From Candidatus Martarchaeota archaeon (GTDB taxonomy: Archaea > Micrarchaeota > Micrarchaeia > Micrarchaeales > Micrarchaeaceae), in contig JAMCZI010000028.1 of the NCBI GenBank assembly GCA_023485545.1, positions 1-64,000 of the forward strand: a stretch of 64,000 nt of DNA, in the 5' to 3' direction. The notes under the pieces are model-generated. The model was not told the DNA's origin, searched no databases, and saw only the letters and a program-made list of their open reading frames with translations. Of the stretch, positions 21,004-25,442 are shown one piece after another. Both the position numbers and the translations under genes were made by a program. Numbering within the stretch: the stretch's first letter is position 1; each line of letters begins with the position of its first letter.

Positions 21004-23820
21004 ATGATTGACTACGGAGCGATAGAAAAGAAATGGCAGAAGCGCTGGGAGGAATCTAATGCGTACGAACCAGAGCCGAACGAAAAGAAGCCCTTATTGG
21101 TGACTGCAGCCTGGCCATACGTCAACATGCCGCTGCATATAGGCCACCTCAAGACATATGCTATAACCGACATGTACGCCAGGTACATGCGTCTGGCGGG
21201 CTACAACACGCTTTTCCCGATGGGCTTCCACTACACTGGCACTCCCATAATAGCGATAGCGAAGAGGATAGCCGAGCGCAACAAGGACGTGCTCGATGAA
21301 ATAAAAGTTTACAACATACCCGATTCAGAGCTCCCCAAGCTTTCTGATCCGCTGTACATGGCAGACTACTTTGCAAAGGATACAGTTCGCGGCCTCAGGG
21401 CCGCAGGCCTGGGCATAGACTGGAGGCGCAGCTTCAACTCGATAAATCCATTCTTCAGCAAGATGGTGGAATGGCAGTTCTCCAAGCTTGTGGCAATGAA
21501 CCTTCTCGAGCAGGGCGAGCACTACGTTGCATGGTGCACAAACGAGGGCAATCCAGTAGGCCAGCATGACACCAAGGGCGACGTGCATCCTGAGATCGAA
21601 AAGGTAGCGATGGTCGCGTTTAAGGTGAAGGATGAGAGCGCAAGCTTCCTCTGCACCACATACAGGCCTGAAACAATATACGGAGTATCAAACCTGTTCA
21701 TAGCGAAGGGCGCAGCATACTCACTAGTTTCAATATCCGGCAAGGATTACTACATTTCAAAAAGTGCAGCAAAGGAACTCGCCTATCAGCTAAAGATGGA
21801 GGAAAAGGGTGATGTCTCCTCTGACGAGCTACTTGCAAAGTCTGCATTGAACCCGCTTACTGGCGAAGAGATTCCAATACTGCCAGGATTCTTCGTTGAC
21901 GAGTCTTTCGGCACGGGCATCGTAATGTCTGTTCCAGCCCACGCCCCATTCGACTACGTCGCTCTCAAAAGACTGGAGAGGGAAGGCTACAAGGTCCCCT
22001 CTTCATACAAGAAGGTGATCTCTCTTGAAGGCGATGCCGAACAAAGCATTCCCTCGATGGTGTACCTGTCGATGTTTGGCGCAGGCGAATCAGCGTCCGA
22101 CGACCTCATAGAAGAAGCAACGAAGAAGCTTTACAGCGCAGAATCACATAACGGGAAGATGAGCGTAGGAAAGTATGCCGGCTCGACAGAGTCCGAGGCG
22201 CGCGAATACATCAAGAGAGACCTTCTTGCGGATGGCAATGCGCTTGAATCATACATAATATCCAATTCCCCCGTTTTCTGCAGGTGCGGCACACGCGCCA
22301 TAATCAAAATAGTAAATGACCAGTGGTTCATAAACTACGGCGACAAGGCATGGAAGGAAAAGGTGAAAGCCCTGTTCGCATCTACCGAAGTGTACCCCAA
22401 GAAGATGCGTGCGGCTTACGATTATACAATAGACTGGCTTGATCTCAGGGCGCTCGAAAGGGCCCAGGGCCTCGGAACCAGATTCCCCCTCAACCCGAAA
22501 CACATAATAGAATCCCTTTCAGACTCCACATTGTACATGGCGTTCTATACGATAAGCCACATAATCGCATCAAACAACATAAGCGCAGACAAGGCGAAGC
22601 CGGAATTCTTCGATTATGTCTTCCTTGGGATAGGCACTGTCGATTCTGCTAGCGCGGCTTCAGGGATAGACCCTCTTGTCGTGAAGCGCTGCCGCGAATC
22701 ATTTGCTTACTGGTATTCAAACACCTCTAGGCATTCTGCTTCAGAGCTGATATACAGCCACCTTACGATGTACCTCTTTGCGCACGCTGCGATAATGCCG
22801 AAGGAGCTGTTTCCCAAGAGAATAGTCACAAACGGCATGCAGCTCTATGAGGGGAAGAAGATGAGCAAGAGCCTTGGCAACATAGTCCCCATAGCAGATG
22901 CTATAAAGAAATACGGCGCAGACAATCTGAGGGCCATAGAGATCGCAGGCACAGAACTGGATACAGATACCGATTTCTCTGTCGCTGCGGTATCAGGGCT
23001 CATGCAGCGCAATGACTTCCTGTACAACACGATAAAGTCGATGGAAGAAATGGATAGCGGCGGACTGCGCCCTATAGACTACTGGCTGTATTCGAAGCTC
23101 AATGCAAAGATATCCTCCGTGACGAAGGACATGGGGTTGCTTTACGTGAAGTCCGCCTTCGGATCCATATACTACGATTCGATAAACGAGATAAAGCGGT
23201 ACCTGGAACGCGGCTCGCCAAACCAGATAGTCCTGTCCGAATTCCTTTCGAAGGTCACTATAATGCTCTCCCCATTCATGCCGCATATCGCAGAGGAATT
23301 CTGGGAGATGCTAGGCAACGATGGCTTTGCCATCGAACAGGCATGGCCCCAACCCGACATCGGTATGATAAACGGGCCGATAGAGAGCTGCGAGGATGTT
23401 ATAGACGCAACGCTGTCAGACATAAAGGGCATAATCACCGTCATGTCGCCGAAGAACGGAGGCTCCATGCCGTCAGAGGTTGCAATCATCATAGCAGATG
23501 AGTGGAAATTCAAGGCATATAACTACCTGGTTGATTCTAAAAAGCATTCCGAGGTAATAGCCAAATCGGAGAGCTTTGGCGCAACAAAAGAGGATGTGTC
23601 AAAATACATACTGCAGTACAAGAACCCTAACAGCGTGACGATGAAGGTTTCCTTCACTTCTGAGGAGTTGCGTTCTGCAATGGAGGACGCCTCAAAGTAT
23701 ATGTCGTCAAAGCTAGGGTGCGCCGTAAAGGTTTACTCCGAATCGTCATCAAGTTCCGCCCGCGCACAACGTGCACAGCCGGAGAAGCCTGGGATAGAGC
23801 TCAAATGGGGTCAATCTTGA
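21004..23820 (+). CDS. leuS: Leucyl-tRNA synthetase (archaeal type)
   Basis: 938 residues, class I synthetase. The HIGH motif is in MPLHIGHLKTY (about residues 45-48) and KMSKS is in GKKMSKSLGN (about 619-623). An editing CP1 domain lies between, including TYRPETIYGVSN and the GTGIVMSVPAHAPFDY threonine/aspartate region. The C-terminal domain follows the archaeal/eukaryotic LeuRS layout, with a short charged extension. It attaches leucine to tRNA-Leu. The stop overlaps the ATG of the HAD gene (TGATG). Confidence 0.96.
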   Translation: MIDYGAIEKKWQKRWEESNAYEPEPNEKKPLLVTAAWPYVNMPLHIGHLKTYAITDMYARYMRLAGYNTLFPMGFHYTGTPIIAIAKRIAERNKDVLDEIKVYNIPDSELPKLSDPLYMADYFAKDTVRGLRAAGLGIDWRRSFNSINPFFSKMVEWQFSKLVAMNLLEQGEHYVAWCTNEGNPVGQHDTKGDVHPEIEKVAMVAFKVKDESASFLCTTYRPETIYGVSNLFIAKGAAYSLVSISGKDYYISKSAAKELAYQLKMEEKGDVSSDELLAKSALNPLTGEEIPILPGFFVDESFGTGIVMSVPAHAPFDYVALKRLEREGYKVPSSYKKVISLEGDAEQSIPSMVYLSMFGAGESASDDLIEEATKKLYSAESHNGKMSVGKYAGSTESEAREYIKRDLLADGNALESYIISNSPVFCRCGTRAIIKIVNDQWFINYGDKAWKEKVKALFASTEVYPKKMRAAYDYTIDWLDLRALERAQGLGTRFPLNPKHIIESLSDSTLYMAFYTISHIIASNNISADKAKPEFFDYVFLGIGTVDSASAASGIDPLVVKRCRESFAYWYSNTSRHSASELIYSHLTMYLFAHAAIMPKELFPKRIVTNGMQLYEGKKMSKSLGNIVPIADAIKKYGADNLRAIEIAGTELDTDTDFSVAAVSGLMQRNDFLYNTIKSMEEMDSGGLRPIDYWLYSKLNAKISSVTKDMGLLYVKSAFGSIYYDSINEIKRYLERGSPNQIVLSEFLSKVTIMLSPFMPHIAEEFWEMLGNDGFAIEQAWPQPDIGMINGPIESCEDVIDATLSDIKGIITVMSPKNGGSMPSEVAIIIADEWKFKAYNYLVDSKKHSEVIAKSESFGATKEDVSKYILQYKNPNSVTMKVSFTSEELRSAMEDASKYMSSKLGCAVKVYSESSSSSARAQRAQPEKPGIELKWGQS

Positions 23821-24479
23821 TGGACGGGCTGATGGAAAGGTTCGACGCGTTCATCTTCGATTGGGACGGAACCATACAGAGCCTGCGCACCATACTGATG
23901 ATAAACGAGGCGCTCAAAAGCATAGGCCGCGATACGAAGTACGCTCTAAAAGGGGGAGGGCGGCACAGGCGCAATTACTCAGACCTCAACCTGAAACGTC
24001 TGATAGAAATTGAGGAAGTGGACAACAGCGTGATGTCCTATGTCCTCGACGCAGTGCTATGGGTCAGCAGGCCAAAGCTCCGCAACGATGTCTCAGAAAC
24101 CCTGAAATACATCTCCTCAAAGCGCAAGAAAGTTGTCGTGTTCTCGAACGCCAACAGGCGGCGGCTGCTCAAGGAAGTCAAGCTGCTCGGGATATCAAAA
24201 TACATAGACGTAATAGTAAGCGCAAGGGATCTCAGGGCTCCAAAGCCCAATCCATCCGGGCTGAACACAGCAATACGAATATCCGGAGTACGAAAAAGCA
24301 GGTGCATTTACATAGGAGACATGGTTACAGACATAATGACCGCCAGGTCTGCCAAAATCGCTTCGTGTGCAATAGCCGGCGGATTTGACAGGTACGATAC
24401 CCTCAGGAAGGAACACCCCAATTATCTCTATCACAGCATGGAGGAATTCCTAAGGCGCGGGCTTGGGAAGCGCGGCTAG
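23820..24479 (+). CDS. HAD-superfamily hydrolase
   Basis: 219 residues. Motif I is FIFDWDGTI with the nucleophile and acid aspartates, motif II is VVVFSNAN, the conserved lysine lies in LRAPKPNP, and motif IV is YIGDMVTDI. The helical cap between motifs I and II suggests a phosphatase of the phosphoglycolate-phosphatase or beta-phosphoglucomutase class. The substrate is unknown. The ATG at 23820 overlaps the leuS stop; the frame extends upstream only through leuS. Confidence 0.85.
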   Translation: MDGLMERFDAFIFDWDGTIQSLRTILMINEALKSIGRDTKYALKGGGRHRRNYSDLNLKRLIEIEEVDNSVMSYVLDAVLWVSRPKLRNDVSETLKYISSKRKKVVVFSNANRRRLLKEVKLLGISKYIDVIVSARDLRAPKPNPSGLNTAIRISGVRKSRCIYIGDMVTDIMTARSAKIASCAIAGGFDRYDTLRKEHPNYLYHSMEEFLRRGLGKRG

Positions 24480-24486
24480 CAATATC

Positions 24487-24495
24487 TATTTAAAT
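24487..24495 (+). promoter_or_regulatory. TATA box for C/D sRNA and nuclease transcript
   Basis: TATTTAAAT, centred near 24491, predicts initiation at about 24516, right at the C box of the predicted sRNA. Confidence 0.55.
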
Positions 24496-24513
24496 CTCTA
24501 ATCAAATCATTAT

Positions 24514-24574
24514 ACCGTGATGAATGAGGTAATCGCTGAGCTTTTGCTGTGACGATTGGTAGGCAGGCTGATTT
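24514..24574 (+). ncRNA. Predicted C/D box sRNA (2'-O-methylation guide)
   Basis: All four boxes are present with exact archaeal spacing: C box GTGATGA (24517-24523), a 12-base guide, D' box CTGA (24536-24539), a 9-base gap, C' box GTGACGA (24549-24555, one mismatch), a second 12-base guide TTGGTAGGCAGG, and D box CTGA (24568-24571). Twelve-base guides are the archaeal norm, because fibrillarin and Nop5 need that length. The D guide can pair with CCTGCCTACCAA, which resembles a GCCTACCAA stretch known in archaeal 16S rRNA. By the N+5 rule the second C of CTGCC would be methylated. It sits in the leader of the nuclease gene. Confidence 0.75.
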
Positions 24575-24575
24575 T

Positions 24576-25442
24576 ATGGGCGCTCTGGACCGGCTTAATA
24601 AATCTAGTATAAGGGTGACGGACATCGCATCCCAGTACTGGTGTGAGAAGCAGATGGAGCTGCGCTACCTGTATGGAAGGAAGATTACCAAGGAGTTGAC
24701 GAAAGGCAGCAAGATGCACGAAGACATGGCGGAGGAGACAAACGTGCAGCTTGACCTGCAGCCGAGAAGCTACGGCGACTTTATGTACAAGACGCTGTAC
24801 GAAAGCTACATGGCGCTAGACTCACTTGCCGAAAAGTCAAAGACGCGCGAGGTCAGCATATTCGGCTCGATAAGCGGATTCAAGACCGTAGGGAAGATAG
24901 ACCAGCTCTCAACGAGAGAAGGAAAGCTGCGTGTCTACGAGGACAAGACTACGCGCTCCAAGCTTCCCGGAAAGGGAGCAATGATGATTGCAAGGGTGCA
25001 GGTAATCCTCTACAGGAAGCTCATAGAGGACATAAAATCCGGAGCTTACACCATATCCGAGTTCAGGAAGGCGACAGGAACGCCGCGGCTAAAGCTGACT
25101 CCAGAGTTTGAACGCCAGATGTCTGCGCTTCACATAAGCGGATCAATTGGGACGATAAGCGAAGTTGAGCAGCGCTACTTTAACGCGCTCAAATCGCTTC
25201 CGGATTTCGACGACAAGCTCTACATACGCTACATAGACCAGTTTACCGGAAGCACTATCCAGCTGTACAGCTTCAAATATTCACAGCATGAGATGGAGAG
25301 CATACTCTCTTTTGCGATGGGCTATTGGAAGGGCGAGCGTTCGGCGCGCCCTGTGCCCTACGAAGAGAGGTCAAAGTGCAACATGTGTGAATTCTTCGGC
25401 AAGGAATGCAAGGTGTGGTGGAATGATACGGTGGGACAATGA
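24576..25442 (+). CDS. Exo5/Cas4-like iron-sulfur PD-(D/E)XK exonuclease
   Basis: About 288 residues. The nuclease core is visible as GKIDQLS with VYEDKTTR (the D and E-x-K of PD-(D/E)XK). One cysteine lies near the N-terminus (YWCEKQMELRY) and three near the C-terminus (CNMCEFFGKEC), the arrangement that holds a [4Fe-4S] cluster in Cas4, AddB and Exo5/Dem1. YLYG and the final layout favour Exo5-type exonuclease. No cas genes are nearby, so a CRISPR role is not supported. I use ATG 24576; GTG 24549 lies inside the predicted sRNA. The stop overlaps the alaS start (ATGA). Confidence 0.8.
   Translation: MGALDRLNKSSIRVTDIASQYWCEKQMELRYLYGRKITKELTKGSKMHEDMAEETNVQLDLQPRSYGDFMYKTLYESYMALDSLAEKSKTREVSIFGSISGFKTVGKIDQLSTREGKLRVYEDKTTRSKLPGKGAMMIARVQVILYRKLIEDIKSGAYTISEFRKATGTPRLKLTPEFERQMSALHISGSIGTISEVEQRYFNALKSLPDFDDKLYIRYIDQFTGSTIQLYSFKYSQHEMESILSFAMGYWKGERSARPVPYEERSKCNMCEFFGKECKVWWNDTVGQ

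Follow-up and report, generated by a model that had tools for sequence, protein, structure and literature searches.

A conserved dual-guide box C/D sRNA gene ahead of an Exo5-family nuclease gene in Micrarchaeota, with a predicted guide for 16S rRNA C1402

We examined a short element lying directly upstream of an Exo5-family nuclease gene in a 64,000-nucleotide stretch of micrarchaeal DNA, referred to below as the window. The reading that explains it best, which we regard as very probable, is a gene for a dual-guide box C/D sRNA that carries a promoter of its own; the D guide would be directed at C1402 of 16S rRNA, the D' guide would lie on the 16S 3' end, and Exo5 would share the promoter. 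The anatomy of the element, its conservation, the spacing of its promoter and the covariation of the D guide with its target were observed in the genomes compared.

Anatomy and identification of the element

The four-box array GTGATGA-12-CTGA-9-GTGACGA-12-CTGA occupies positions 24517-24571 of the forward strand. Box C (GTGATGA, 24517-24523) is followed by the 12-nt D' guide ATGAGGTAATCG (24524-24535), box D' (CTGA, 24536-24539), the 9-nt D'-C' linker GCTTTTGCT (24540-24548), box C' (GTGACGA, 24549-24555), the 12-nt D guide TTGGTAGGCAGG (24556-24567), and box D (CTGA, 24568-24571). Directly 3' of box D lie TTTT and then the ATG of the Exo5-family (PD-(D/E)XK) nuclease gene (24576-25442, forward strand), four bases past the box; the product was assigned to Exo5 by Pfam (PF09810, E 6.7e-38). 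The upstream neighbor, a HAD-family phosphatase gene (23814-24479, forward strand), ends 37 bases 5' of box C, and the gap of only 96 bases between the two genes contains the TATA box and the sRNA element. An earlier note, made from the DNA letters, had claimed a C/D sRNA with guide intervals of exactly 12 bases, an Exo5-like gene downstream, and an ATG four bases past box D, and all of these details were borne out.

A generic four-box scanner gave the sRNA site a score of 22.0, and the sole other match in the window scored 17.25. In 40 Markov-resampled windows the top score was 18.75 and none reached 20. The covariance search that the earlier note had proposed as a check returned 78 bits for the sRNA, far above the 12.8 bits of the next match in the window. 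At the gathering threshold, Rfam detected only a tRNA over the window. The best Rfam match of the sRNA was RF01139 sR2, a Thermococcales C/D sRNA, at 25.3 bits, below the gathering score of 42; sR2 has the same box architecture but different guide sequences.

Boxes C (RUGAUGA), D' (CUGA), C' (RUGANGA), and D (CUGA) occur in order, and the two 12-nt guides lie directly 5' of D' and D, with lengths kept in nearly all relatives. The linker can form a hairpin of two G-C pairs closing the internal C'/D' kink-turn or kink-loop. In a wider sequence set, pairs 1 and 2 of this hairpin were retained in 98/100 and 98/99 sequences (98%), and a compensatory exchange of pair 2 from C-G to G-C was observed in nine sequences. 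For the third pair, covariation was not above that of shuffles by pair counting in the order-level alignment. The stability of the sRNA in single-strand folding was not above expectation (z 0.5), and a lack of excess fold stability is expected of a C/D RNA. The D guide places a G:C pair at -5, the fifth base before the box, on C1402, with covariation. Both fibrillarin and Nop were detected in the host's own genome; among the 11 genomes tested, fibrillarin was present in all and Nop in 10.

The C' box contains a GTG (24549) that shares its reading frame with the Exo5 ATG, and the conserved block could thus be read as an N-terminal coding extension of Exo5; the box arrangement might also have arisen by chance. 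However, the spacing between box D and the start codon shifts by 1-2 bases among relatives, so the coding frame is not kept, and the block is also found without Exo5. A chance arrangement is opposed by the four-box score at the site, which was never attained in the resampled windows. The comparative data refute both proposals, to which we assign a vanishingly small probability. Judged from conservation, covariation with 16S rRNA, and the conserved linker hairpin, the element is a real box C/D sRNA gene, in agreement with the earlier identification.

Conservation, promoter, and relation to Exo5

Loss of the boxes or of their spacing in close relatives, which the earlier note had named as evidence against the sRNA, was not observed: all four boxes were present upstream in 30 of the 30 nearest Exo5 orthologue loci. 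The sRNA was also located upstream of most further Exo5 loci in the order, in both of its families. Those relatives of the Exo5 protein that bear a name are Candidatus Micrarchaeota, among them Ca. Micrarchaeum sp. A_DKE (NZ_CP060530.1) and Ca. Mancarchaeum. Across the phylum, the covariance model matched 226 of 301 genomes (E <= 0.001), the weakest of which may represent other C/D sRNAs. Most of the sequences read outside the order shared GGTGATC as the core of the D' guide, and their D guides were close to GACGGGCGGT. The covariance model gave no match in the Exo5-bearing lineages G008, G016, G027, G038, and G054, and in G003 the sRNA was kept with a decayed D guide. The box D' sequence was CCGA instead of CTGA in several lineages (L045, L047, L049, L036, and L054), and in most of these the D' guide has G at -5. 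Archaeal C/D guides have been described as fast-evolving, with no site common to all seven species studied (PMC7994747). The conserved four-box sRNA is, on sequence grounds, a further member of the archaeal box C/D sRNAs, with conservation unusually wide for an archaeal C/D guide.

Outside the order, no neighboring Exo5 was found by tblastn in eleven 2-4 kb neighborhoods, and other genes, such as one for a phage-integrase-type recombinase, were located downstream of the sRNA. In two genomes negative in the Exo5 search (G020 and G042), an ORF was present downstream of the sRNA. The ORF of G020 (L240) encodes a 215-aa PD-(D/E)XK family protein according to Pfam, possibly a diverged Exo5/Cas4-like nuclease; L226 is another such locus without detectable Exo5.

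The TATA box TATTTAAAT is located at 24487-24495, and an A/T-rich element corresponding to the initially melted region at 24505-24511, both on the forward strand. In 80/80 order-level copies, the TATA box had a fixed position relative to box C, -30 to -24. In these copies, A/T content was 99-100% at -29 to -25 (100% at -28 to -26) and 94% at -10, within an A-rich block, and a purine-rich flank was observed near -35. The same promoter profile and spacing were observed in 41 copies outside the order, where Exo5 is not adjacent. The distance from the TATA box to box C is the usual archaeal promoter spacing, and transcription should therefore start at box C or 1-2 bases upstream of it, as the earlier note had predicted from the TATA box. 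Because the fixed spacing to box C holds outside the order, away from Exo5, the promoter is, by its geometry, that of the sRNA and not of Exo5. Within the order, the projected Exo5 start was 3-57 bases past box D in 73/75 loci, which supports a promoter common to Exo5 and the sRNA, with the sRNA as the mRNA leader; the shared promoter that had been suggested earlier is thus consistent with the geometry in the order.

Overlaps with the 5' ends of protein genes have been reported for ~7% of archaeal C/D genes, and artificial overlaps of this kind lower expression of the downstream gene (PMC7994747). In Sulfolobus, L7Ae represses mRNAs carrying leader kink-turns (PMC5539422), and in many micrarchaeal genomes 3-5 bases separate the end of box D from the projected start of Exo5. 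The element might accordingly be primarily a regulatory leader, in which L7Ae, bound to two kink-turns of the Exo5 mRNA, represses translation, the guides being secondary. Such a leader would not need its guides to covary with 16S rRNA, yet covariation was seen, and outside the order the sRNA retains its guides and promoter without an adjacent Exo5. We consider this explanation improbable and favor a guide sRNA that also serves as the leader of Exo5 in this order.

The two guides and their predicted 16S rRNA sites

Targets were scanned for in the whole aligned 16S and 23S rRNAs of the order, with numbering anchored on E. coli rrsH. The best conserved site of the D guide was the 16S stretch aligning with E. 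coli 1398-1407, and C1402 was the base opposite the fifth D-guide base, as checked on E. coli rrsH. For 56 pairs of D guides and matched 16S rRNAs, the pairing sum was 455.5, compared with 425 +/- 4 when genomes were permuted, and 0 of 5000 permutations were as good. This permutation leaves relatedness in place; yet the co-changes were found in several separate genera. They were located at guide positions -3 (A with U1400), -7, -8, and -9 (A with U1406 and G with C1406), with matched changes at 1400, 1404, 1405, and 1406 of 16S rRNA. In the scrambled-guide control at this site, the fraction was 0.005. These results point to the D guide as the predicted director of ribose methylation of C1402. 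Measurements in P. abyssi (Cm1376), yeast, and human have shown Cm at the equivalent of C1402 (PMC7005279 Table 4), and Cm at this base is also known in E. coli (PMC7005279 Table 4; PMC11542601). In the 16S rRNA of this order, the variants C1404U, G1405A, and U1406C occur at the base of helix 44, which is normally invariant, and the D guide tracks them.

The earlier note had proposed that the D guide fits an archaeal 16S element and that the guides be compared with the organism's own rRNA. A 16S search of the host assembly (78% complete) was negative, and the closest 16S rRNA for the window was that of a sister species of the genus. The proposed fit was right in kind, since the site at 1398-1409 reads ACCGCCTACCAA in several relatives; in the sister species it reads ACTGCCCGCCAA, with which 10 of the 12 D-guide positions pair (nine Watson-Crick pairs and one G:U; position -7 is A:C and -1 is unpaired). 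The strict prediction rule of at least nine consecutive Watson-Crick pairs (PMC4644070) was missed with the 16S rRNA of the sister species, and at least nine such pairs were found in G019, G032, and G071.

Outside the order, none of 23 distinct D guides matched the universal ACCGCCCGUC perfectly, where the 16S sequence was read in a minority of cases and otherwise assumed. At -2 to -9, one mismatch was present in 14 of these guides and two in 9, at varying positions (loci L254, L250, L227-L237, and L278-L307). Their mean computed duplex energy was -15.0 kcal/mol, compared with -20.6 kcal/mol for perfect guides. One explanation, offered as a lead, is that duplex stability may be capped to allow release.

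For the D' guide, to which the earlier note had assigned no target, AGATCACCTC at the 3' end was the best 16S site (E. coli 1529-1538). In the window, the guide would pair with positions equivalent to 1529-1540, with A opposite C at the base to be methylated. Outside the order, D' guides gave 9-10 contiguous Watson-Crick pairs at this invariant 3' end, including the target C1533, and at least nine consecutive pairs (PMC4644070) were found in G170, G194, and G197. The -5 base of the D' guide was A opposite C in most of this family, including this genus. Under the rule applied in PMC4644070, a mismatch at -5 means pairing without methylation, and because of this A:C mismatch the D' guide in this genus probably docks on the 16S 3' end without methylating it. 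Among the 56 genomes, the methylation base was in a Watson-Crick pair for both guides in 28, for the D guide only in 19, for the D' guide only in 8, and for neither in one (G003).

Within the order, the scrambled-guide control for the D' guide at the 16S site gave a fraction of 0.06. Because this test is weak, the 16S 3' end is no more than a likely target. The D' guide may instead act on 23S rRNA at CGGUURCUUU or on a tRNA, or be an orphan without a target; for about one third of archaeal C/D sRNAs there is no match to rRNA (PMC4644070). The 23S site had the highest mean score within the order, slightly above the 16S site, once G:U pairs were counted; the duplex contains many of these, and the site is retained solely as a rival. 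By contrast, the long Watson-Crick pairing outside the order, the conservation of core positions -2 to -9 as the complement of the 16S 3' end, and the separation of only ~130 nt between this site and the D target argue for 16S rRNA. A different D' target, or none, is a possibility to be taken seriously but the less likely one, and we retain the 16S 3' end as the preferred site.

At micrarchaeal 16S 3' ends, AGATCACCTC is followed by A/G, not CCTCC (16S loci L071-L100 and L133-L150), and the anti-Shine-Dalgarno sequence is therefore reduced; the 3' ends of G005, G013, and G027 were shorter still. The 16S genes of many relatives contain long inserts, and that of the sister species G002 (L133, ~720-1205) looks protein-coding and is possibly a homing endonuclease intron.

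Proposed pathway and comparison with known systems

We infer the following course for transcription, RNP assembly, the methylations, and Exo5 expression from the same start. RNA polymerase would initiate at or directly before box C, and the ~60-nt RNA would be bound by L7Ae, Nop5, and fibrillarin. At the base of helix 44, the D guide would pair with the 5' strand (E. coli 1398-1409), and fibrillarin would ribose-methylate C1402, the nucleotide of the P site and a universally important position of the decoding center. The D' guide would dock on the single-stranded 16S 3' end (1530-1538, including the anti-Shine-Dalgarno); this docking may lead to C1533 methylation in many relatives and, in this genus, would serve only to anchor the RNA. 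Within the order, Exo5 would begin a few to a few tens of bases past box D, with the sRNA as its 5' leader.

Archaeal C/D sRNAs overlapping the 5' end of a protein gene have been described (Tripp et al. 2017, reviewed in PMC7994747). As in those cases, the dual-guide RNA is ~55 nt and the start codon lies just past box D; unlike those, the arrangement is kept through the whole order, and the promoter geometry indicates that the sRNA is the primary unit. A literature search found no earlier paper on such an sRNA in Micrarchaeota. The two guides resemble those of Nanoarchaeum equitans sR15/sR17, for which a chaperone role has been proposed, in lying on separated 16S segments that meet in the folded subunit; those sRNAs target helices 28 and 30, whereas here the sites are the base of helix 44 and the 16S 3' end (PMC4644070).

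In eukaryotes, the snoRNAs SNORD43/U43 (human) and snR70 (yeast) guide formation of Cm1703 and Cm1639 of 18S rRNA. The nucleotide predicted here is ribose-methylated in eukaryotes and, by RsmI, in bacteria (PMC7005279 Table 4; PMC11542601). SNORD43/U43 is likened to the sRNA by predicted target alone, as a functional analogue with no homology claimed, and bacteria, unlike systems with sRNA-guided modification, use different machinery (RsmI) for Cm1402.

A more speculative extension, to which we give a small chance, is that one promoter yields two products by RNP-protected processing, in which the sRNA, shielded by its own kink-turns, is trimmed at box D and a near-leaderless Exo5 mRNA is left. 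The P-site methylation guide and the repair nuclease would then be yoked, with guide strength held below perfect and one guide often silenced by A:C at the methylation base while the other is Watson-Crick there. On the main reading, the sRNA would be what directs Cm1402 formation in archaea that depend on hosts and have small genomes. This base is ribose-methylated in all three domains, and the guides are recognizable across the sampled families of the phylum. The locus also makes it possible to test whether an sRNA gene doubles as a protein-gene leader.
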